Under the pieces are notes generated by a model. That model was not told the origin of the DNA, searched no databases, and saw nothing but the letters and a program-made list of their open reading frames with translations. A DNA stretch of 29,848 nucleotides from a virus. The stretch is from positions 1 through 29,848 of the IMG/VR virus record IMGVR_UViG_3300034117_000038, one strand, 5' to 3'. Below, one piece after another: positions 13,822-27,896 of this stretch. Within the stretch, counting starts at the first letter, position 1, and every line of letters starts with the position of its first letter. The position numbers and the translations under genes are program-made.

Positions 13822-14181
13822 TTATTGCACGATATTACGTGCGACTGGTTGATTAGATTGTGGTATAGTGCTTACACCATATAAACTAGTTTTAGATTTA
13901 AAACTATTAAGGTAATATGATATAACTTGATTCATTTGTAATTTATTAGTGCCTTGAATTTGACCTAATAAATCTAAAACAGGGATACCTGTCTCTTGTG
14001 ATATTCTAAATAAAAAAGCAGTAAAGTTGCCAGCAATTGCTTTAGTACCACATATCGTTTTAAAATATCCGTTAACGATATCAAATTCATTACCATTTAC
14101 TACCATATTAAATGAGTAAAAATCATCAAATACTTTGACAGTTAAGTCAGTTGATGTACGTTCATCTATAATTCTTGCCAT
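13822..14181 (-). CDS. Conserved phage protein upstream of gp4, function unknown
   Basis: A 119-residue protein (MARIIDERTSTDLTVKVFDDFYSFNMVV...). It has an N-terminal beta region and a mostly helical middle (residues about 38-100, FFRISQETGIPVLDLLGQIQG-like) ending in YYLNSFKSKTSLYGVS. Its constant place between the tube paralogue and gp4, and its own late promoter, argue for a virion assembly role. T4 late baseplate genes encode several small chaperones of this size, but I see no specific match. The start is supported by AGGAA 7-8 nt upstream, part of an inverted repeat described separately. Confidence 0.65.
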   Translation of the reverse strand: MARIIDERTSTDLTVKVFDDFYSFNMVVNGNEFDIVNGYFKTICGTKAIAGNFTAFLFRISQETGIPVLDLLGQIQGTNKLQMNQVISYYLNSFKSKTSLYGVSTIPQSNQPVARNIVQ

Positions 14182-14211
14182 ATTATGTTCCTATATTAGT
14201 TATTTATAGGA
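14182..14211 (-). promoter_or_regulatory. Late promoter TATAAATA inside an RBS-sequestering hairpin
   Basis: TATAAATA (14201-14208, minus strand) overlaps the left arm of the inverted repeat TCCTATA / TATAGGA (loop 9 nt). The right arm is the AGGA ribosome-binding site of the gene starting at 14181. Transcripts beginning at the octamer would lack the left arm. Confidence 0.6.
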
Positions 14212-15365
14212 GGAGGAGTTACGTTTCTACCATTTGCTTGTTGATATTGATTTGGTCCTGCACCAAATATAGGAAGATTAAACAATACATTTCTACCAGT
14301 ATTATTTACAGGATTCATAATGGCATTAGTAATTCCTGTTGTTACTTCACTCCTAATAGCTTGTTTAAGATTAATGTTTTTAAGAGTATTGTAAGTAGTT
14401 CCTGCTTTTTGTATAGCACCTAATATGTTTGTATTAGGGCCCGACAAATCATTAATAAATCCACCAACACCATCTACTAAACCACCTTGACCTAAAATAC
14501 TAGCCTGACTTCCGGGTCTAGCAATAGGACTAGTAACTCTATCATAATGATCATTAATACCAAAGCCAGCAATAATATTACTAGGTTCTTTACCACTAAT
14601 AGCACCTTGAAAATACTTAACAGTTTCATAATCCAATGTCATTGTATTTTCCATTGTTCCAGTACCCTCAGCATAGTTGTATGTATCGTGTGCAAATTTA
14701 TTAATCATAGGATTAATTAAAGTATATGCTACGTAATTGTGTTGATTAAAACCAAACACAGTAATGTTTTTAAAGAATGGAACTTTAGTTTGACCATTGG
14801 CAGCTTGAATGTTAGTTGCCGGAGTATCCGATGTTTCACCTATATAACCCCAGTCAGTATCACCTGTTATATCCTGTGCATATATGTTTCTAACATTATA
14901 GTTTGCATTGTTAGGATTGGTGCCGCCGGTAAGAGCTTGTCTTCCGGATACTGTTACAACTGGCTTACTAGCATCTTTGTAATAATATGTATAGTAATTA
15001 TACCACAAGTTACGTATTAAGTTTCCATTATCATCATGAAAATTAATATCTACTGTGTCATATTTTATTTTTGTTTGTACAATACGTTTACGATTGTATT
15101 GATTTAACTGATGTGTATCAAATGAATAACTAGGTAATTTTACAGATTTAACAGCTAAACCAAAGTTTGCACCTTGTGGCAAACCTACTGCATATGCACT
15201 TTGATTGATTTCAAAATACACATGGAATAGGAACTTGAATTTAGGTGCATATTGATATGCATTGGGTCTGAAAGTCTTACTAGCGTGAGTGTAATCACGA
15301 AGGTAATCGCTGCCGAAGAATCCTCCGGCAGCGTCTGTTAGTAAATTCTGAAAAAATCCAGACAT
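14196..15365 (-). CDS. Tail tube paralogue (gp19 family; gp54/gp48-like baseplate-tube junction candidate)
   Basis: A 389-residue protein whose first 150 residues follow a tail-tube fold pattern: FKFLFHVYFEINQ, LAVKSVKLPSYSFDTHQLNQYN, then VQTKIKYDTVDINFHDDNGN. Around 215-265 lies the second tube half (FFKNITVFGFNQHNYVAYTLINP, then GTMENTMTLDYETVKYFQGA). A Gly/Asn-rich extension of about 120 residues ends in PPPINN. In T4, gp48 and gp54 are gp19-related and cap the baseplate where the tube begins. The larger size and location next to gp19 make such a role plausible. No Shine-Dalgarno is visible; the start sits beside an AT-only hairpin. Which T4 protein it corresponds to is uncertain. Confidence 0.7.
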   Translation of the reverse strand: MSGFFQNLLTDAAGGFFGSDYLRDYTHASKTFRPNAYQYAPKFKFLFHVYFEINQSAYAVGLPQGANFGLAVKSVKLPSYSFDTHQLNQYNRKRIVQTKIKYDTVDINFHDDNGNLIRNLWYNYYTYYYKDASKPVVTVSGRQALTGGTNPNNANYNVRNIYAQDITGDTDWGYIGETSDTPATNIQAANGQTKVPFFKNITVFGFNQHNYVAYTLINPMINKFAHDTYNYAEGTGTMENTMTLDYETVKYFQGAISGKEPSNIIAGFGINDHYDRVTSPIARPGSQASILGQGGLVDGVGGFINDLSGPNTNILGAIQKAGTTYNTLKNINLKQAIRSEVTTGITNAIMNPVNNTGRNVLFNLPIFGAGPNQYQQANGRNVTPPPINN

Positions 15366-15387
15366 TTAATATATTAAAATATATTAA
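15366..15387 (-). promoter_or_regulatory. AT-only perfect hairpin at the gp19/tube-paralogue junction
   Basis: Inverted repeat TTAATATAT-TAAA-ATATATTAA (9-bp stem, 4-nt loop). It touches the ATG at 15365 and contains the gp19 stop codon region. It takes the place of a ribosome-binding site. Confidence 0.5.
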
Positions 15388-16010
15388 GAACCAATACCTG
15401 TAGCTATTGATCCAAGTGTACGGCCAACACTCGTGCCAACACCCGCAGTCAATGGTGATTGAACAGCATTGTCGAAACGTATTGACATTTGTATTGTTAC
15501 TACTTCATTTGAACTGTATGCTAAATTGTTATAGTTAGCGGCTTGTAAGAAGCAACCATAACATTCCCAAGTTTCTAAAACGATAGGAACACTTGTGCCA
15601 TTACCACCGTCTAAAATTTCAATGTTTGTTTGAAACTTATAATCTTGACCTGATGCGGCTGATGCTTGTTCAACAAAGTCCATTTGCTTCTGTAATTGTT
15701 GACCTACTAATTGGGAAACACTACCTGTTGCATCATCTCTAACGTTGATTGTTAGAGGTTGCCATTCGTGTCTACCTGCCAAATACATAGTAGAGTTATA
15801 AACAGGGATATTAATTTCGCCAAAACTAACTGATGGACGTGTTACGTCAATAACTTGTTTAGTTAATTCATTAGTAGCGTTATTAGTACCGAAGTTTAGA
15901 AAATTAACTCTAAAACGATATTGTAGTTTGGGCATTAGCAAGCCCTGATTTCCGCCAGCATTATCCGATGCTACGGTCATGTTAAACAATGATTGTGAGG
16001 CTATTGCCAT
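15384..16010 (-). CDS. 19: Tail tube protein gp19
   Basis: A 208-residue tail tube subunit, slightly longer than T4 gp19 (163 residues). It has LMPKLQYRFRVNFLNFG (about 25-42), QVIDVTRPSVSFGEINIPVYNS (about 52-72), and WQPLTINVRDD (about 80-90). The second half is WECYGCFLQAANYNNLAYSSNEVVTIQMSIRFDNA, the usual final beta region. gp19 stacks as hexameric rings through which DNA is ejected. It directly follows the sheath gene, as in T4. A strong AGGAG 7-8 nt upstream and a late promoter 20 nt upstream give it independent high late expression. Confidence 0.85.
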   Translation of the reverse strand: MAIASQSLFNMTVASDNAGGNQGLLMPKLQYRFRVNFLNFGTNNATNELTKQVIDVTRPSVSFGEINIPVYNSTMYLAGRHEWQPLTINVRDDATGSVSQLVGQQLQKQMDFVEQASAASGQDYKFQTNIEILDGGNGTSVPIVLETWECYGCFLQAANYNNLAYSSNEVVTIQMSIRFDNAVQSPLTAGVGTSVGRTLGSIATGIGS

Positions 16011-16029
16011 TTTTTTCTCCTGTTATTAA

Positions 16030-16037
16030 TATTTATC
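16030..16037 (-). promoter_or_regulatory. Late promoter GATAAATA (gene 19)
   Basis: GATAAATA on the minus strand, 19 nt before the ATG at 16010, followed by AACAGGAG. It lies between the gp18-gp19 hairpin and gene 19. Confidence 0.8.
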
Positions 16038-16042
16038 TTTAT

Positions 16043-16072
16043 AATTTGATACCCCTTTCGGGGTATCAAATT
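16043..16072 (-). terminator. 13-bp hairpin with GAAA tetraloop between genes 18 and 19
   Basis: A perfect 13-bp inverted repeat AATTTGATACCCC / GGGGTATCAAATT with, on the minus strand, a GAAA loop. It lies 4 nt past the sheath stop. The minus-strand downstream side is only weakly U-rich, while the plus-strand side is TTTTATTATT. It may be a terminator, a processing site or an mRNA 3'-end stabiliser. Confidence 0.65.
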
Positions 16073-16075
16073 TTA

Positions 16076-19000
16076 TTATTGTCCACCGAGCTCGCCTGTG
16101 TTCAATATACGAACCGGGATATAGATGAATTCAGCTGCCTTAACAGGCTCAACTGCAACGTCAATCCACAATTCATTTCTATCGATTCTTGCTGGAGTAT
16201 TGTTACTATCGTCACAAACTACAATATAATCATATAGACCGCGTTTTGCAACTAAATCTACCATCAATGTTTCTACAACACCGGAGATTTGATTGCGTGT
16301 TAGTGCATCATTAGGTTCGAATACGAACGGTCTTGCTGCCAATGTCAACTGTCTACGTATGTAAGCAATCAAACGAGCAACGTTAGTTCTATCTAACGCA
16401 CTTGAACTGTTAAAGCTTGTCTTGTTACCGTAGTTCAATAAACCAACACCAGTAAAGAACACTAATGGATTAATGAAGTTGGTATACAATACATCACGAA
16501 TACCTAAGCGTGTCTTAATTGGAGTAAACTCACCGGTCGCACCATCAACATAACCAATGCTTAATGCATTGTCAATTGTACCACGGCGTGTACCAGCTGC
16601 CGCTAACCAAGGATAAGCTACAGTATCATTACGTAAGAATGTACGCAACATCATATATGAAGCAGGAACAGCTACCTGATTACCTGACAAGTCTGTTGCT
16701 AAGCCACTTGGATAGAATAGACCCATATATGTATTGCGTGTTACTAAACCTTGTTCACCTGTACTAGATGCACCGGCTTCGTTAGTAGCCCAAGCTTGAA
16801 TATCAGTAGCACTATCAGCTAAACGCATTGGAGTATCACCTAAGATATAACCAGTTTCACCTCGATCTGCGTTCAACGCAATCATTGCAGGTTGTAGTTC
16901 AGGATAGTTAGGAGTAGCCATCAAGTTGAAGAAGTTATCTTCATCACGAATTGCAGTATTAGTTGCAACTGCGGCATTTAATGACTGAACAACCATAGCA
17001 CGTTGTGCTTTACGACCCATATATGGAGCACCATTAGTTTGTAAACCACTTACTGTTACCCAAGCATCTGTTTCTGTTGGCAAAGACTCATCAGGGAAAT
17101 CCGTACCATTGAAATAGTTTGTTCTGAACTGCTTTACATTATAACCTGAACGGCGTGTGTTAAACAATAACATACCTGATGGATATAAACTTGCATCAGG
17201 AGCATCTAAATCTAAATAATTGCTAGCTAACAATGATACGATTGTTGGGATAGGATCATCTACTGGACTTGTTGTACCGTTTGTGGCCCAACGAGCATCA
17301 GAAAATAATACACCAGTACTACCTGTTTGGTCAGTGTTATCAATTAGTACCCATTGATCAGTACTGTTAACTGATTGCCAACGACTAATTACTGGGTAAT
17401 TTTCTAAATCACCAGTATTAATCCACAAATCACCATATACTAAAGCTGTACCGTCACTTTGAACAGTTGGTGTACTTGCAGAAATTATAGGACCATTTGG
17501 ATCAGTTTCGTTTGTTCCACTAGGTAAGGGGAATCCATCACTATCATAATCACGCAAACCATAACCATACCAAGCACTATTGTAGTTAATCATAATATCA
17601 ACTTGATCAACTACACTATAGAACCAGTTAGTGTTATCTGCAGGAGCCACTACAGGATCGCTGTCACTTGAAATATAAGTAAATTCAACCCAGTTACTTA
17701 ACTGTGATTGAAACGCTATAGGAGGAGTACCTGAAATATATGTAACTGCAGTCACTGCACCAGTAGACACAGCAGTAACCTTAACATCTAAATCGTTGAC
17801 TCCTGACTGTCCGCCTAATTCTACACCGTCAACACTAATGATATCTCCAATAGTATATCCCGATCCAGTAGCCGCCACACCATCACCTACTAAAACATAA
17901 GCACCAGATGAGGTTACAACATTAATCGTAGCACCAGTACCAGTAGCACTAGTACTAGGAGCCCCTGTAAATGTTGCTTGAATTGTAGGTCCATATTTAA
18001 CACCAGTAGTTACACCAATAGTAAATCCAGCCTCAACAATTAATCCGTTAGATACACCAGTTGAGACAAATGAACTATTAACAGTGTCATCCATAATAAT
18101 TTCTCCACCCTCAGTGTGCGTAATTTGAATTGCACCATCAGTAGTTACTATAGCTGTAGTATTTGGAATACCTGCTGCCGACCATGCTGTTACAAAATCA
18201 GTCGCATCACTATTATCTGCAACTGTTATATTATACGCATTACTTAAAGTTGTAGTACCCGCAATAGGTACAAATACATTCATACGATATGGACCAGAGT
18301 TGAAAGTAGGAGAAGTATTATCTCCTGTGATTACGGTAGGTCCTGTTGCAATACGCTCCCAGAAGTAAATTGGAGCAGTAGCACCCGACCCATTATAATT
18401 ATATTGCGAATAAATAGTTCCAGCTGGAATAGCTTGACCACCGGTTGCATCTAGACTTGCACTAGCTGACCAGTCACTAACGTATAATCCCACATTCTTA
18501 GCATTCCAAGTTTGTGTAGCACCGTTGAATACTGACATTGATGGATTTAAACCATTACCAGATGCACCAACTTTAATCCAAATTGATCCAGTTGGACGAG
18601 GTTCTGATTGACTACTTGACCATAATGGCATTTGAGCAGACGTACCGTATACAAGAAGAGGTTGGTAATACGTAGTAGAATCAATACCCATATCAGCCAA
18701 TGCACCAGGAGTAACTTCTGTTAAGGTTAAGTATGAATTAGCAATACCTAATGTTGTTAATTGATTGGAGAAGATGCATAATTTACCACTACGAACTTCT
18801 GCAGTTACATCTGTCCAACCTAAATTATTAATTACAGTAGCCACACCATCAACAGTATTATTTGGGGCTACTGGAACTGTAATAGTTACGGAATAAATTC
18901 CAGATACACTCATTGTGAATGACTCACCTGCAGTCAAGGTTGTAGGTGAATTAGTACCTTGTACTGCCGGTGTATCATTTCTCCAAACAGGGCCACCTAA

Positions 19001-19645
19001 TCTTGTCCAAGCATTAGTAGTTGTTTTATAAAAATATGTTTTATCTGATGTGCTTACTGGATTACCAGTAATTTGTATAGCATTAACTGCATACTCACCC
19101 ACTGAACCAATGCTATTATTTGGAACACCGGCAGTCAAATCAGCACTGTCAGTAATGACAATAGGAGTTTGTAATGCAAATTTTCCAGTTGTAGCATTGA
19201 ATTCATAGATACCCCAACTGCTTGTAGTAGAATCTAACCAATATGTGCCGCTAGCTGGATTCCCAGTTGGGCGACCTGTTTGACCTACTAAGCTAGCTAA
19301 GTCGATATCAGCACGTAGAACGTAACAACGATTTGTCACACCTAATGTTGAATAAGCAGCCAACAAGCCGTATTCATTAAGTTCATAACCTTGAATTGGT
19401 GTACCATTTGTCGTTGTATAGAAGAATGGAGTACCATACAAGTTTACTAAATCTCTTTGACTTGTAACTTGGAATAATTTGTTTGCGTTTGCCGCTGTTG
19501 TTGCCGCCGCTACACCTGTACCAGATGCGTCAGCTTTATTCTGTGCCGTAGCAAGAACCACTAGTGGGACGGAATTTGTGGGCGCTGGTAAATATTGACT
19601 TTGGTCAATGATTGATACTTCTACGCCTGGAGATGTTAATGCCAT
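16076..19645 (-). CDS. 18: Contractile tail sheath protein gp18 (enlarged)
   Basis: A 1189-residue sheath subunit; T4 gp18 has 659. The N terminus MALTSPGVEVSIIDQSQYLP and the DLVNLYGTPFF / GYELNEYGLLAAYSTLG segments match the family start. The conserved C-terminal region begins near residue 870 (RKAQRAMVVQSLNAAV). It includes AYPWLAAAGTRRGTIDNA, INPLVFFTGVGLLNYGNKT, VARLIAYIRRQLTLAARPFV and AAEFIYIPVRILNTG. The extra ~500 residues (about 130-860) are Gly/Thr/Ser-rich beta modules, including WGIYEFNATTGKF (about 143) and GSGYTIGDIISVDG (about 590). Such insertions project outward from the sheath surface in other phages. SD AAGGAA lies 7 nt upstream, and a late promoter 54 nt upstream. Confidence 0.9.
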   Translation of the reverse strand: MALTSPGVEVSIIDQSQYLPAPTNSVPLVVLATAQNKADASGTGVAAATTAANANKLFQVTSQRDLVNLYGTPFFYTTTNGTPIQGYELNEYGLLAAYSTLGVTNRCYVLRADIDLASLVGQTGRPTGNPASGTYWLDSTTSSWGIYEFNATTGKFALQTPIVITDSADLTAGVPNNSIGSVGEYAVNAIQITGNPVSTSDKTYFYKTTTNAWTRLGGPVWRNDTPAVQGTNSPTTLTAGESFTMSVSGIYSVTITVPVAPNNTVDGVATVINNLGWTDVTAEVRSGKLCIFSNQLTTLGIANSYLTLTEVTPGALADMGIDSTTYYQPLLVYGTSAQMPLWSSSQSEPRPTGSIWIKVGASGNGLNPSMSVFNGATQTWNAKNVGLYVSDWSASASLDATGGQAIPAGTIYSQYNYNGSGATAPIYFWERIATGPTVITGDNTSPTFNSGPYRMNVFVPIAGTTTLSNAYNITVADNSDATDFVTAWSAAGIPNTTAIVTTDGAIQITHTEGGEIIMDDTVNSSFVSTGVSNGLIVEAGFTIGVTTGVKYGPTIQATFTGAPSTSATGTGATINVVTSSGAYVLVGDGVAATGSGYTIGDIISVDGVELGGQSGVNDLDVKVTAVSTGAVTAVTYISGTPPIAFQSQLSNWVEFTYISSDSDPVVAPADNTNWFYSVVDQVDIMINYNSAWYGYGLRDYDSDGFPLPSGTNETDPNGPIISASTPTVQSDGTALVYGDLWINTGDLENYPVISRWQSVNSTDQWVLIDNTDQTGSTGVLFSDARWATNGTTSPVDDPIPTIVSLLASNYLDLDAPDASLYPSGMLLFNTRRSGYNVKQFRTNYFNGTDFPDESLPTETDAWVTVSGLQTNGAPYMGRKAQRAMVVQSLNAAVATNTAIRDEDNFFNLMATPNYPELQPAMIALNADRGETGYILGDTPMRLADSATDIQAWATNEAGASSTGEQGLVTRNTYMGLFYPSGLATDLSGNQVAVPASYMMLRTFLRNDTVAYPWLAAAGTRRGTIDNALSIGYVDGATGEFTPIKTRLGIRDVLYTNFINPLVFFTGVGLLNYGNKTSFNSSSALDRTNVARLIAYIRRQLTLAARPFVFEPNDALTRNQISGVVETLMVDLVAKRGLYDYIVVCDDSNNTPARIDRNELWIDVAVEPVKAAEFIYIPVRILNTGELGGQ

Positions 19646-19698
19646 TTTATGTTTCCTTTATGTAAAATTTTGAGGTTTACCACCTGATTGCATATTAA

Positions 19699-19706
19699 TA
19701 TTTATC
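19699..19706 (-). promoter_or_regulatory. Late promoter GATAAATA (gene 18)
   Basis: GATAAATA on the minus strand, ending 53 nt before the sheath ATG. The predicted leader is longer than for the other late genes. Confidence 0.7.
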
Positions 19707-19765
19707 TAATACTTCAAAAAAGATCCATTATCCGTGCCTTCGAAGGTTTATAGAGTAAATAGACT

Positions 19766-20110
19766 ATGAGACCAATCTGTTCTACCTGTGAAAAGAATTT
19801 CTGCGCTATTAATTATAAGCGTGGTGAAGTCACCCATTATCGTAGTATGTGTGACGAATGTGGTAGAAGGAAAAACAAACTTAAACCTCGCACTCCTAAA
19901 TGGAAGAGTAAAGGTTATAAGAAAAAAGCCGCTTGTGATTTATGCGGCTTTAAGAGTTTATTTACTAGTCAAATTACAGTCTTTCATATTGACGGCAACT
20001 TAGATAACGCAGAAATGTCTAATCTGCGTAGCATCTGTCTTAACTGTGTAGAAGTAGTTAAAAAGAAAGAAGTTACTTGGAAACGAGGAGACTTACAGGT
20101 TGACCACTGA
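19766..20110 (+). CDS. Degenerate HNH-like double zinc-ribbon protein
   Basis: A 114-residue basic protein with two metal-binding halves. The first is C5-x2-C8 with C29-x2-C32. The second is C57-x2-C60 with C91-x2-C94, flanking a treble-clef centre VFHIDGNLDNAEMSNLRSIC (about 72-91). The HID...N...NL...CxxC order is that of HNH endonucleases, but the usual HH pair is FH and the final CxxCH is CxxCV. Catalysis is therefore doubtful and DNA binding more likely. It is the only plus-strand gene among minus-strand genes here and overlaps the kinase 3' end by 18 nt, tail to tail. I recall near-identical small proteins in marine T4-like phages. A weak TTGAGG-17-TATTAA promoter may lie at 19670-19698. 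Confidence 0.7.
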   Translation: MRPICSTCEKNFCAINYKRGEVTHYRSMCDECGRRKNKLKPRTPKWKSKGYKKKAACDLCGFKSLFTSQITVFHIDGNLDNAEMSNLRSICLNCVEVVKKKEVTWKRGDLQVDH

Positions 20111-20725
20111 GTTAACTTGCTTATGTAAGTCATCAATAGAACCGTTATTATCAATATAATGGTCATACAATAATCCAACACTACTATACTCACTAGCATG
20201 GACACTATAGTTTCCTAACTCTACCATAGCTTTTAATCTTTGTTCACTACCCTCAGGCTCATTATTATAGTCTACTGCGGCACTATACCAAACTGGACGT
20301 TCACCTCTATTAACTCGCATAGTGATTCCACCTACACTTTTAATTGAATTGACTTCATTAACAAAACGACAATCTGTAATCACAATGTTTTCATCAGTTT
20401 GACGTAGTTTATTCTCTACACTTGCTACCCAAATATCACTATGGAAGTTATTACGACATACTTCTGTTCCCCAGTATTGTAATACCCATCTTGGGGTAAT
20501 ATTCATACCTAGTCGGTCACTCCACCATTCGTCTTTTTGTTCTCGCCATGCTCTGCTTGTTTTAGTTGAACCTTCCAAGTATTCTCTATTCCATCCAAAG
20601 ACGGCTGATACTGCGTCTTTTAAACTTGCCGCAAAACTAACACGTTTGAACCCGTGAAATGTGCAAAGATAGTCGGCAATTGTGTCCTTGCCGCTCGAAA
20701 TTAAACCGGTAACACCTATAATCAT
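20093..20725 (-). CDS. 1: Deoxynucleoside monophosphate kinase (T4 gp1-like)
   Basis: A P-loop kinase of 210 residues from the chosen start. MIIGVTGLISSGKDTIADYL carries the Walker A G7-x4-GKDT. Then come VSFAASLKDAVSAVFGW (substrate lid entry), the TPRWVLQYWGTEVCR block, and ENIVITDCRFVNEVNSI (Walker B-like Asp), as in T4 gp1 and related dNMP kinases. The enzyme phosphorylates dNMPs, feeding DNA synthesis from host DNA breakdown. A longer frame begins at 20746, but AGGAG at 20733-20737 is 7 nt before the ATG at 20725, so that start is preferred. The ribosome-binding site lies in a hairpin that contains the gene's own early promoter. Confidence 0.8.
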   Translation of the reverse strand: MIIGVTGLISSGKDTIADYLCTFHGFKRVSFAASLKDAVSAVFGWNREYLEGSTKTSRAWREQKDEWWSDRLGMNITPRWVLQYWGTEVCRNNFHSDIWVASVENKLRQTDENIVITDCRFVNEVNSIKSVGGITMRVNRGERPVWYSAAVDYNNEPEGSEQRLKAMVELGNYSVHASEYSSVGLLYDHYIDNNGSIDDLHKQVNSVVNL

Positions 20726-20731
20726 ATGGTA

Positions 20732-20775
20732 ACTCCTGTAATACATATTGTACTACAGGAGTGTTGTAATGTAAA
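20732..20775 (-). promoter_or_regulatory. Early promoter within an RBS hairpin of the dNMP kinase gene
   Basis: On the minus strand TTTACA (20770-20775), a 17-nt spacer and TACAAT (20747-20752) form a sigma70-type promoter. The 9-bp inverted repeat ACTCCTGTA (20754-20762) / TACAGGAGT (20732-20740) has the -10 in its loop and the left arm in the spacer. Its right arm is the AGGAG ribosome-binding site. The expected start point near 20740 leaves the left arm out of the local transcript. Confidence 0.65.
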
Positions 20776-20784
20776 TTGTTTAGG

Positions 20785-21570
20785 TTAACCTTGTACCCAA
20801 GTCAATGGCTGACTGTAATCTACATATCGTTTTAGTTCTTCAATGAGTTCTTGTTGAAGTTGTTTGGATTCAGCCTTCATTGCCGCACCATTTAAACTTG
20901 TGCCGCCTCCTGGACCTGCGATACTAGCAAACTTTTCACGTGCTTCACCAATAATACCTTTTAATACGGCAAATACCCAATCACCAATCCATACACCGGC
21001 ACCTGGATCTTGCAACAAAACTTCTTGTGTTCTTTGTACATCAGCCCAAATCAATATACGTTCTCCGGATCCTTTTGGATCACGCACAATACGTAATACT
21101 TTGGTAACCGGATCAAATGTATAGATAACATATCCACCAAACATTCTGGCAGCTAGTTCAACGTAACCTGCATAAAAGTCATATGTTGCCATACCACCTG
21201 CATAGTTATAGTTTAACAAATAAGTGTTTAGAATAGCTGAACTAAATGGATCAAATGAACTACTTGATGGACCTGTTTCTAGACCAACTGTTCTACGAAA
21301 GATAGAACGTACATTAATAAACTCACTGGGAAGTGTATAAGTATCTACATTCTTTTCTACTGTGAAAAGAGTGTATGATTCTGCTGTAGAGTTTTGTGCC
21401 CGTTGACGATATACTTTGATGGCATAGTTATATGCCGCTTCATAGTGTTGCGGGTCTAGTTCTAAATCAATAATGCCGTCACCTAAACGATATCTAACGT
21501 TTTGGAATAGTGCTTGTTTTAATTCGTCTAGCGTTAAGCCTGATGGTGTAGCTAATATATTTGCGGTCAT
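20785..21570 (-). CDS. 13: Neck protein gp13-like
   Basis: A 261-residue protein. A helical start (LDELKQALFQNVRYRLGDG) is followed by LELDPQHYEAAYNYAIKVYRQ, TYTLPSEFINVRSIFRRTVGL, AARMFGGYVIYTFDPVTKVLRIV, then RILIWADVQRTQEVLLQDPG. The C-terminal helical part is WVFAVLKGIIGEAREKFA...AMKAESKQLQQELIEELKRYV. This order matches gp13 neck proteins of cyanophage-type T4 phages, which bind the portal vertex and recruit gp14. T4 gp13 is somewhat longer (309). Late promoter and ribosome-binding site are in one hairpin just upstream. Unlike T4, genes 14 and 15 are not next to it but 2.8 kb away on the other strand. Confidence 0.7.
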   Translation of the reverse strand: MTANILATPSGLTLDELKQALFQNVRYRLGDGIIDLELDPQHYEAAYNYAIKVYRQRAQNSTAESYTLFTVEKNVDTYTLPSEFINVRSIFRRTVGLETGPSSSSFDPFSSAILNTYLLNYNYAGGMATYDFYAGYVELAARMFGGYVIYTFDPVTKVLRIVRDPKGSGERILIWADVQRTQEVLLQDPGAGVWIGDWVFAVLKGIIGEAREKFASIAGPGGGTSLNGAAMKAESKQLQQELIEELKRYVDYSQPLTWVQG

Positions 21571-21574
21571 AGTT

Positions 21575-21603
21575 GTTTCCTGATGTTGTATTTATCAGGA
21601 AAC
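21575..21603 (-). promoter_or_regulatory. Late promoter inside RBS-sequestering hairpin of gene 13
   Basis: On the minus strand GTTTCCTGAT-AAATACAAC-ATCAGGAAAC is a perfect 10-bp stem with a 9-nt loop. The late octamer GATAAATA (21589-21596) spans the end of the left arm and the loop. The right arm holds the AGGAAA ribosome-binding site, 4 nt before the ATG at 21570. Confidence 0.75.
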
Positions 21604-21620
21604 TATAGTGTTGTAACCTA

Positions 21621-22562
21621 TTATGCTAGACCATAAGTTGCGGCCGCTAAGTCATATCTAGCAGTACCAACACCTGCAGTATCTGTGGCCACTACACCTG
21701 TGTTTGATACTAGGTTAGTAATTGATACAGCACCGCCGGCGGCACCATATCCAAAAATAGCTTTGTCAGTACCATAAGTTGCGGCTCCTAACTGACTCCT
21801 AGCAGTACCAACACCTGTAGTATCTGTAGCAACAACGCCTGTATTTGATACTAAGTTGGTCATTGATACCGGTCCGTTTCCATATCCAAATATAGCTTTA
21901 TCAGTTCCATAACCTGCGGCTGCTAAACTATATCTAGCAGTACCAACACCTGTTGTATCAGTAGCAACTACACCTGTATTACTTACTAGGTTGGTCATTG
22001 ATACTACAGTAAAACCTCCGGCGCTAGTAGCACCATAACCAAATATAGCTTTGTCAGTACCATATGTTGCGGCTTCAGCTAACTGTCTTGCTGTACCAAC
22101 CCCTGCAGTGTCAGTCGCAACTACCCCTGCGTTTGATACTAGATTAGTTATTGCGGTGTTGGATGGTCCAGTCCTACCATATCCAAATATAGCTTTATCC
22201 GAACCATATGTTGCGGCTCCAAGATTATATCTAGCAGTGCCGACACCGGTAACATCATTTGCTACTATACCTGCATTTGATACTAGATTAGTCATACTTA
22301 GTGGATTACCAGATGTTTGGTCATAACCATAACCAAAGATAGCTTTATCAGTGCCGTAACCTGCGGCTGCTAATGCATTCCTAGCAGTTCCAACACCTGT
22401 TGTATCAGTAGCAACTACACCTGTATTACTTACTAGGTTGGTCATTGATACACCACTACTACCGTTAGTCCCATAACCAAATATAGCGTATGCAAGATAC
22501 GACGGAGGTTGTGGTGTTACACTTACTCCACCACCAATTGAAATTCCTGATCCGATATCCAT
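21621..22562 (-). CDS. Six-repeat propeller-like protein (AIFGYG repeats)
   Basis: A 313-residue protein. After a 27-residue Gly/Ser/Pro leader it has six units of 45-51 residues, each built as KAIFGYG - variable loop - SMTNLVSNTGVVATDTTG - VGTARxxLAAAxYGTD. The last unit ends at ATYGLA, exactly where the first begins (YAIFGYG), as expected if the chain closes on itself as a six-bladed beta-propeller. The pattern resembles Kelch/RCC1-like repeats but matches neither consensus. The loops after GYG differ in every copy (YDQTSGNPL, RTGPSNTA, ATSAGGFTVV, NGPV, AAGGAV), while the scaffold is nearly constant. A late promoter directly upstream suggests a virion or adhesion role. Function is otherwise unknown. 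Confidence 0.7.
   Translation of the reverse strand: MDIGSGISIGGGVSVTPQPPSYLAYAIFGYGTNGSSGVSMTNLVSNTGVVATDTTGVGTARNALAAAGYGTDKAIFGYGYDQTSGNPLSMTNLVSNAGIVANDVTGVGTARYNLGAATYGSDKAIFGYGRTGPSNTAITNLVSNAGVVATDTAGVGTARQLAEAATYGTDKAIFGYGATSAGGFTVVSMTNLVSNTGVVATDTTGVGTARYSLAAAGYGTDKAIFGYGNGPVSMTNLVSNTGVVATDTTGVGTARSQLGAATYGTDKAIFGYGAAGGAVSITNLVSNTGVVATDTAGVGTARYDLAAATYGLA
21625..22495 (-). repeat. Six tandem ~145-nt coding repeats
   Basis: Six in-frame repeats of about 135-153 nt, highly alike in DNA (for example the phrase coding KAIFGYG and that coding VGTAR). They are interrupted at one fixed place per unit by unrelated short sequence. Confidence 0.85.
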
Positions 22563-22589
22563 AATATGTTATCCTTTAACATATTTATC
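22563..22589 (-). promoter_or_regulatory. Late promoter and hairpin presenting the SD in its loop
   Basis: On the minus strand GATAAATA (22582-22589) overlaps the hairpin AATATGTTA-AAGGA-TAACATATT, a perfect 9-bp stem directly before the ATG at 22562. The AAGGA ribosome-binding site is the 5-nt loop. The octamer also overlaps the mazG stop codon. Confidence 0.6.
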
Positions 22590-23022
22590 AGATATCATTT
22601 TCTTTTCGATTTTCGCTATAATGTGCGTCAAAACTACCACCGGGATAACGACTTTCTAATTTACGAACGTTCTCATCAATAACATCATTTGGGTCAAGAT
22701 TCAAGGCCCTACAAGCATTAATCCAGTACCACATAACATCACCTAATTCTCGCTTTAAGTGAAAAACTTCAGCATCAGTTAATGGTTTGCCCTGAAAAAA
22801 CATCTTTTTGGGCACTTCGATAAATTCACCACCTTCAGCCGCTAATCCTAGGCAAGCGGTTAATAACAGTGGTACATTGATATCAGGACCATGTACTCCA
22901 TTACCAATATAATTACCATCAAGCTCATCACATCGGTCCATAAACGTAGTCAAGTCATTACTTGCTTTGCTTGTTACAGCTTCTACAAAATCTTTGTATT
23001 TGTTTAAATCAATATTACTCAT
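22588..23022 (-). CDS. mazG: MazG-like nucleotide pyrophosphohydrolase
   Basis: A 144-residue MazG-type all-alpha NTP pyrophosphohydrolase. The metal-binding pattern ExxE-x25-ExxD is complete: E63-GG-E66 in LGLAAEGGEFIEV and E92-LG-D95 in LKRELGDVMWYW. A C-terminal helix follows (VIDENVRKLESRYPGG). These enzymes hydrolyse NTPs or dNTPs to NMP and pyrophosphate. In marine phages MazG is proposed to lower (p)ppGpp or to recycle host nucleotides, although the natural substrate is disputed. The start overlaps the upstream stop by one base (TAATG), so it is coupled to the 397-residue gene and probably expressed early from the promoter at 24248-24276. Confidence 0.9.
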   Translation of the reverse strand: MSNIDLNKYKDFVEAVTSKASNDLTTFMDRCDELDGNYIGNGVHGPDINVPLLLTACLGLAAEGGEFIEVPKKMFFQGKPLTDAEVFHLKRELGDVMWYWINACRALNLDPNDVIDENVRKLESRYPGGSFDAHYSENRKENDI

Positions 23023-24215
23023 TAAAATGCTTTCAAAATAATCATTTGATCATTAAACCTACCGTTAGGTGTTGTACTAACTGCTTTAATGTCTTTAAAA
23101 TACTTACGAGCGGCCGGCTTGCTACCCATAACTTCTTTAATCTGCTCACTAGGTTTACGTAATGTCTTTACTTCACTTTGTGCAGTATCAAATCCCAACA
23201 GTGTACTACCTTTAACAGTAAAGGTCTTGCTATAATCATCGGCAATGTAATGATGTAACTTGCGCTTTGCGGTATCATACACCCAAGCTTCACTTGCACC
23301 ATGAAGCTTGATTGGACTAATACTTACTAAGTCCATCTTACTTGCAGTATCTTTGAATGTTTTAAGATACTTAAGTTTTGCTACTTGTTTCTCTACTGGT
23401 ACTGCTTTACGTGCCCTAGGAGCTTTTGCGGCCTTCTTAACACTAATGTAACTGTTCAAATCATTGATAACTAATTCAATAAACTTAACAATGTTTTTAA
23501 GTTGTGTTTTTGTTAGGTGCTGATAACCCTGAACTAGTTGCGCATCTGTACCTTTTAATACTTCTTCAATTTCATTCAGTTTCTTTTTCCACACATCGGT
23601 TAGCAAACTAATATGTTGAGGCATTACATTCTTTTTAGCTACTTCATCAATTGGTCGTAATGTATGTCTTGTTCCGGCACCTGACGTAATATATTCATCA
23701 AACAATCCTTCAAGTTCACCGCCGGCTTCACGTGCTTTATCTTTAAGAATTTCCTGAATGTTGGGACGAGAAGGAGCTTCAGGTGCACCGGTTGCAGTAG
23801 CTTCAACTAGTTGTGGTTTATTAATAGTTTCAAGCAATCGTTTAATTTCATTTTGTAGTGTATCTGATTCTGTTTCAGATAGTTCTAGACCACGCAATTC
23901 CATACGTGCTAACCAGCATAAAGTATTGATACATTCTTTCTCATCAATCCTACGCATGATCTTAGCCTCTTGTGGTCTTTCACGTAGGTCTAGGTATTGT
24001 GCTAAAAATTCTTTAGCATCTTTCTTACCATAAAAACGACCATACCATGTGAAACTACGCATAAGTGCTACTCGGCGTCTATCTGAATCGGGTTGTACGG
24101 CAAACATAGGTTCAGGACCTAAATATTCTGTATCCGGGTCTCTGGGGTTAAGTGTCTTAACCTGTGAATAATCACTAGCTTTAATGATTTTACTTGCGGG
24201 TTTACGTGTTGCCAT
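23022..24215 (-). CDS. Conserved T4-like marine phage protein of unknown function
   Basis: A 397-residue soluble protein. The basic N terminus MATRKPASKIIKASDYSQVK precedes a helical region containing FTWYGRFYGKKDAKEFLAQYL and ECINTLCWLARMELRG (about 55-115). Another helical stretch is about 195-265, followed by a Lys/Arg/Ala-rich linker (KKAAKAPRARKAVPVEKQ). A final beta-containing domain includes MDLVSISPIKLHGASEAWVYDTAKRKLHHYIA (about 302-333). I recall this as a hypothetical in marine myophages. The early promoter, clear SD (AGGAG) and coupling to mazG suggest an early metabolic or nucleic-acid role, not a virion part. The charge pattern allows nucleic-acid binding, but no enzyme motif is seen. 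Confidence 0.75.
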   Translation of the reverse strand: MATRKPASKIIKASDYSQVKTLNPRDPDTEYLGPEPMFAVQPDSDRRRVALMRSFTWYGRFYGKKDAKEFLAQYLDLRERPQEAKIMRRIDEKECINTLCWLARMELRGLELSETESDTLQNEIKRLLETINKPQLVEATATGAPEAPSRPNIQEILKDKAREAGGELEGLFDEYITSGAGTRHTLRPIDEVAKKNVMPQHISLLTDVWKKKLNEIEEVLKGTDAQLVQGYQHLTKTQLKNIVKFIELVINDLNSYISVKKAAKAPRARKAVPVEKQVAKLKYLKTFKDTASKMDLVSISPIKLHGASEAWVYDTAKRKLHHYIADDYSKTFTVKGSTLLGFDTAQSEVKTLRKPSEQIKEVMGSKPAARKYFKDIKAVSTTPNGRFNDQMIILKAF

Positions 24216-24247
24216 TAAGTTCTCCTAAATTTATAGCGCATTTATGT

Positions 24248-24276
24248 ATTGTAGCAGATTGTCCATTTGTTGTCAA
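24248..24276 (-). promoter_or_regulatory. Strong sigma70-type early promoter (unknown gene and mazG)
   Basis: A perfect -35 TTGACA (24271-24276), a 17-nt spacer and -10 TACAAT (24248-24253) on the minus strand. Predicted start is near 24241, giving a leader of about 26 nt with AGGAG before the ATG at 24215. Confidence 0.85.
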
Positions 24277-24326
24277 CCGTGAGATTGAGCCATTTTCTAA
24301 CTCTATTTACTGAACCGACTATAAAC

Positions 24327-27467: not shown

Positions 27468-27884
27468 ATGAATAATATTTCAGCAGGCGTGTTCTTTTAC
27501 GCTAAAAATACACAACGATTTTTATATCTACTTAGAACGGACAATAAAAATCCGGGCAATTGGGGTATACCGGGCGGTAAGATAGAAAATGGCGAGACAT
27601 TGCTTGTAGGCATTGATAGAGAATGTACTGAAGAAATTGGATACTTTCCAAAAAATCCTAAATTAGTACCTATACAAAAGTTTGTAAATAATACATTTAC
27701 ATATCATACATTTTTTTGCAAAATAGATGAAGAATTCATTCCAATATTAAATTATGAGCATTGCGGTTATGCTTGGGTGGGTGATAATCAATATCCTAAA
27801 CCATTACATCCTGGATTGTTTAGTACTGTAAACTTTGATGTAGTGCAGAAAAAATTAAAAGCACTTACAAAAAAAGAGACCTAA
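27468..27884 (+). CDS. Nudix hydrolase
   Basis: A 138-residue single-domain Nudix protein with an intact box. G37-x5-E43-x7-R51-E52-C-T-E55-E56-I-G58-Y lies within PGGKIENGETLLVGIDREC, and the preceding WGIPGG turn is present. Such enzymes cleave nucleoside diphosphates linked to another moiety. Phage relatives have been linked to ADP-ribose, Ap4A, NADH or mRNA cap removal, and the substrate cannot be told from sequence. No Shine-Dalgarno is visible before the start and the promoter is almost on top of the ATG. The stop codon lies in the loop of the terminator hairpin shared with the opposing gene. Confidence 0.9.
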   Translation: MNNISAGVFFYAKNTQRFLYLLRTDNKNPGNWGIPGGKIENGETLLVGIDRECTEEIGYFPKNPKLVPIQKFVNNTFTYHTFFCKIDEEFIPILNYEHCGYAWVGDNQYPKPLHPGLFSTVNFDVVQKKLKALTKKET

Positions 27885-27896
27885 GTCTCTTTTTTT
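27869..27896. terminator. Bidirectional Rho-independent terminator
   Basis: Perfect inverted repeat AAAAAAGAGAC-CTAA-GTCTCTTTTTT between two converging genes, U-rich on either strand. The loop carries the Nudix TAA, and the right edge reaches the stop of the opposing gene at 27895. Confidence 0.9.

Follow-up and report, generated by a model that had tools for sequence, protein, structure and literature searches.

In phage T4, the leaders of genes e, soc and 49 hold the Shine-Dalgarno (SD) sequence and/or the start codon inside an RNA helix, and the late promoters of e are situated where the 5′ strand of that helix is encoded, so that late RNA escapes it (PMC3014915). A late promoter inside a hairpin that sequesters the ribosome-binding site (RBS) of early or middle transcripts is likewise found at the T4 genes I-TevI, I-TevII and segB and at mobE of phage Aeh1 (PMC2988022). 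For the jumbo phages CBB and GAP32, an ATAAATA late-promoter motif of the same type as the one treated below has been described together with a gp55-like sigma factor, in a paper whose passages on the motif mention neither a hairpin nor a translational lock (PMC5259590). Across the open-access literature, our search for late-promoter hairpins in jumbo phages returned T4 work only; earlier reports may exist in subscription journals.

Here we describe such a hairpin at a gp13-like neck gene in a 29,848-nt stretch of viral DNA (the window). The proposed mechanism is the one already known from T4 e, soc, 49 and I-TevI, and the likeness to e, soc and 49 lies in an SD held in an RNA helix with a late promoter within its 5′ strand (the strand being documented for e). 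Novelty lies in the gene concerned, the phage lineages, how deeply the device is conserved, its recurrence within the window and the terminator-like forms in several jumbo phages. In contrast to the T4 e, soc and 49 systems, the guarded gene is the neck gene gp13, the promoter motif is GATAAATA rather than T4's TATAAATA, the lock is conserved over a much larger sequence distance, and the phage is without a close DNA match among phage records; T4 gene 13 itself has no such hairpin. Whereas the I-TevI-type leaders guard mobile endonucleases, this one precedes the gene for a virion neck protein, which neighbours conserved MazG and deoxynucleoside monophosphate (dNMP) kinase genes. On the evidence below, the gp13 leader very probably acts in cis as a translation lock that only late transcripts escape, extending a control device of a few T4 genes to giant phages otherwise little like T4.

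Anatomy of the gp13 leader

The gene encodes a 261-aa gp13-like neck protein, or head-tail adaptor Ad2 (20785–21570, minus strand; PHROG 211, E = 3e-24), and its tblastn matches among jumbo phages carry the annotation neck protein or T4-gp13-like. Hairpin, promoter and gene all lie on the minus strand, a point absent from the first-pass annotation, which had placed the SD of gene 13 in the right arm of a perfect 10-bp stem with a 9-nt loop and a promoter across the left arm and loop. Each of these elements was recovered. On the minus strand, the left arm GTTTCCTGAT (21594–21603) pairs perfectly over 10 bp with the right arm ATCAGGAAAC (21575–21584) around the 9-nt loop AAATACAAC (21585–21593); the SD, AGGA (21581–21578), sits within the right arm; and the late promoter GATAAATA (21596–21589), a T4-type TATA box (−13 to −6 in T4 numbering, PMC2988020), takes in the final 3 nt of the left arm and continues 5 nt into the loop. 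The minus-strand sequence 5′ of the ATG at 21570 reads GTTTCCTGATAAATACAACATCAGGAAACAACT-ATG. In T4 late promoters the TATA box begins at −13, roughly a helical turn before the transcription start (PMC2988020); the same spacing here yields a predicted late +1 at 21583 (minus strand), from which the RNA would carry a 13-nt leader lacking the left arm.

The 57-nt RNA folds at −12.8 kcal/mol, compared with −2.6 ± 1.65 kcal/mol for dinucleotide shuffles (z = −6.16; 0 of 200 equally good). Perfect stems of at least 10 bp with loops of at most 12 occur at three places only in the whole 29.8-kb window, giving 8 records against a mean of 0.4 and a maximum of 4 in Markov-1 simulations. In the model, opening the gp13 SD costs 10.9 kcal/mol in read-through RNA versus 0.6 kcal/mol in late RNA, and opening the stretch from SD to AUG costs 12.3 versus 0.7 kcal/mol. 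Rfam covariance models gave no match at E ≤ 1 within positions 21500–21700.

Covariation and the late promoter in related leaders

Megablast of positions 14000–24300 against phage records returned no match. The protein relatives of the window are jumbo phages at 22–44% identity, and near-identical genes occur in IMG/VR contigs, including one of 348.7 kb (G001). Leaders were collected through similarity of the gp13 protein, with the hairpin not used as a criterion, and the 166 loci obtained contain 67 unique leaders. In 54 of these, the promoter region is joined to the SD by a stem of ≥7 bp, the longest reaching 16 bp; in the other 13 the stem is shorter. In two of the relatives (L020 and L021, including G001), GATAAATA has changed to ATTAAATA and the stem is lost too.

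The suggestion in the first-pass annotation that homologous leaders be compared for compensatory changes in the two arms was carried through on a MAFFT alignment of 64 distinct leaders, and the arms do covary. Standard pairs occupy 80.9% of cells, and the covariation score of 0.276 compares with 0.158 ± 0.012 after shuffling (0 of 500 shuffles reach 0.276) and with 0.049–0.103 in slid registers. Columns 10 and 41, for instance, are paired as UA 21 times, AU 20, GU 7, UG 2 and CG once, and covarying arm pairs include TTCC/GGAA, TACC/GGTA, CCC/GGG, CTCCA/TGGAG and CCCGT/ACGGG. To allow for relatedness, pair states were mapped on the gp13 gene tree, where double changes that keep pairing number 39, as against 3–11 in slid registers. 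RNAalifold found no consensus structure on the full 64-row alignment; restricted to the 51 rows that lack additional loop columns, it recovered the expected helix at −7.75 kcal/mol. The failure on the full set probably reflects loop indel columns that misalign the arms. With compensatory changes across 64 distinct leaders, comparative support for this control device is much stronger than before.

These data bear directly on two other explanations of the hairpin. A chance pairing of the promoter flank with a purine-rich SD can point to the fact that a pyrimidine-rich flank beside AGGA pairs at random to some degree, and that arm swaps in G001 (described below) still leave roughly 8 leaders in 67 with ≥3 kcal/mol; yet a folding z-score of −6.2, the 39 compensatory changes against 3–11 and the excess of strong cases over the arm-swap expectation make it hardly credible, and the covariation tests already contradict it. 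The palindrome might instead work as DNA, either as an extended late-promoter element (CCTGATAAATA) or as a protein operator, with RNA pairing incidental. A CCT adjoining GATAAATA is indeed common in the leaders of this family, and the I-TevI protein of T4 binds the late promoter of its own gene (PMC2988022). Nevertheless, elsewhere in the window GATAAATA promoters have no CCT beside them, the arms change jointly with pairing kept, G-U pairs included, loop length varies, and distant phages use unrelated arm sequences, all of which render this DNA-level reading very improbable.

The promoter assignment draws on the relatives as well. GATAAATA is 21-fold enriched in the gene leaders of G001, compared with 20-fold for TATAAATA in T4, and G001 encodes a gp55-family late sigma factor (phrog_12791, E = 3e-71), the window itself being a 30-kb fragment; phages 121Q, CBB and Muenster also encode one. 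Together, covariation, motif enrichment and the late sigma gene in a relative support the reading of the gp13 leader as a predicted translation lock, and with it the original proposal of a late promoter inside an RBS-sequestering hairpin at gene 13. No gp45-type sliding clamp turned up when the jumbo phages were searched with PHROG 223, and late activation may therefore be unlike that of T4.

Genes inserted between MazG and gp13 in relatives often bring hairpin modules of their own. The loci L025, L068, L020, L021, L011 and L022 have differing inserts upstream of gp13, each with its own late-promoter hairpins, for which the modelled gain is 5.8–14.6 kcal/mol. The pattern would fit a hairpin module that moves together with inserted late genes or arises at them. 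We also considered whether the gp13 lock is lost when a late gene is inserted upstream; the raw medians of the modelled gain (4.6 versus 11.4) lean that way, and the idea is unsupported once relatedness is taken into account (3 independent pairs).

Distant jumbo phages and terminator-like forms

In Muenster, 121Q, CBB, XaC1 and Munch, gp13 is preceded by a hairpin whose sequence is unrelated and whose right arm contains the SD; these gp13-guarding hairpins span jumbo phages of Klebsiella, Escherichia, Pectobacterium, Xanthomonas and Salmonella. In all five, a TAAATA box lies in or beside the left arm (examples are ATAGCACCTC-TAAATA...GAGGTGCTAT and ACCCCTAAATATG...CATGTTTAGGGGT), and starting at the late promoter lowers the modelled SD cost by 8.9–12.9 kcal/mol. 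The gp13 leaders of T4, Atu_ph07, Phosso and PA5oct showed no lock on examination, and those of SCTP-2 and Vibrio phage 2.275.O have a weak lock at best. In 121Q, the annotated start of gp13 (gene 548, L111; KM507819.1, 260959) falls inside the hairpin, 15 nt upstream of a likelier start, the in-frame ATG at 260974 that follows GAGGTGCTTTTTT.

Genome-wide, every TAAATA box upstream of an open reading frame with an SD was scored for the SD opening cost in the long versus the late transcript, and the null came from swapping upstream arms between promoters within each genome. Differences of at least 8 kcal/mol exceeded the arm-swap expectation in G001 (3 versus 0.12), CBB (4 versus 0.27), 121Q (3 versus 0.21), Muenster (2 versus 0.19) and T4 (5 versus 1.3), and the T4 scan recovered the positive controls e, I-TevI, I-TevII and 49. 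At ≥3 kcal/mol the excess is modest (13 versus 8.3 in G001), so weak cases are not to be over-read.

Some of these leaders carry a second signature. A T run follows the stem, before the ATG, in 121Q, CBB, XaC1 and Munch and in three contigs related to the window (L292, L294 and L301), and judged by sequence these forms look like intrinsic terminators as well. They speak for the hairpin being chiefly an intrinsic terminator that acts on transcription from upstream and contains a late promoter, as does the T run found in 121Q, CBB and Muenster at their KTSC gene. We find this improbable as an account of the locus: the window and most close relatives have a AAACAACT-type sequence after the stem and no T run, the window hairpin was not called by the terminator scan, and the Muenster gp13 hairpin is also without a T run. 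Where the terminator-like forms do occur, they suggest that one element of 30–50 nt could end the upstream RNA and start the late RNA at the same point.

At the KTSC-domain gene itself (121Q 35043, CBB 231631, Muenster 262178), a late promoter lies in a strong hairpin, after which come a T run and then the ATG. This element, present in three jumbo-phage genera, would combine terminator, promoter and RBS.

Upstream transcription and other hairpins in the window

On the minus strand, the order is sigma-70 promoter, 397-aa gene, MazG, 313-aa gene, gp13, dNMP kinase and tail sheath. The sigma-70 promoter TTGACA-17-TGCTACAAT (24248–24276) matches 11 of 12 consensus bases and is a putative source of early read-through RNA. 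Behind it lie the 397-aa gene (23022–24215; PHROG 11903), the MazG-like pyrophosphatase gene upstream of gp13 on the same strand (22588–23022) and a 313-aa repeat-rich gene (21621–22562), and the dNMP kinase gene directly follows gp13 (20093–20746; PHROG 139, Pfam DNMK). The promoter is conserved in 54 relatives as well as in the window, 1.3–3.6 kb upstream of gp13 (3.6 kb in G001), and is otherwise found on the sense strand only, save for 2 antisense matches in 209 kb. A terminator scan of the minus strand from 24248 to 21604 found no terminator-like site. Given this conserved promoter and the lack of a terminator-like site between, early read-through into gp13 is plausible.

Under the translation-lock reading, RNA entering gp13 from upstream, most plausibly from the sigma-70 promoter at 24276–24248, would carry both arms, fold the 10-bp hairpin and hide the SD, leaving gp13 untranslated early in infection although its neighbours can be translated. 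After replication, the phage late sigma factor would bring RNA polymerase to the GATAAATA box in the hairpin, and RNA starting near 21583, without the left arm and unable to fold, would allow translation of gp13. We infer in this way the start site, the early read-through, the strength of repression and the timing, and gp13 would then be made from late transcripts only. Such a lock predicts which late genes stay silent on early transcripts.

The design recurs in the window and across jumbo phages, which had gone unremarked in the first-pass annotation. At the 313-aa gene, a second GATAAATA box (22582–22589) lies in a minus-strand hairpin (22554–22596) that encloses both SD and start codon, the loop holding the SD and the AUG falling between segments of the stem; the modelled SD-to-AUG opening cost is 9.7 kcal/mol in read-through versus 2.1 kcal/mol in late RNA. 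This enclosing form is found in several relatives too, and several others have the ordinary SD-sequestering form at the same position. A third, weaker lock, TCCTATA-AATAACTAA-TATAGGA (14189–14211, minus strand), has 9 nt between its arms and TATAAATA in the left one, and precedes a 119-aa gene of unknown family (13822–14181); here the modelled SD-to-AUG cost is 6.0 versus 1.5 kcal/mol. In contrast to the leaders of 21570 and 22562, those of the late block at 16010, 12860 and 9618 carry no lock, with little modelled difference between long and late RNA.

Tentatively, late-promoter hairpins might serve as a general 'timing insulator' at the early/late gene boundaries of jumbo phages, with one short element serving as late promoter and translation lock, in several lineages also as terminator, and with virion genes inserted into early operons carrying their own copy. 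The sequence signature of the lock can also be used to locate early/late boundaries in jumbo phages that have not been cultured.

Two other hairpins in the window are of separate interest. A 13-bp hairpin, AATTTGATACCCC/GGGGTATCAAATT (16043–16072), closely precedes the tail tube gene's GATAAATA promoter and scored as terminator-like on the plus strand. A 12-bp perfect hairpin (27869–27896) marks the junction of two convergent genes and is probably a bidirectional terminator.
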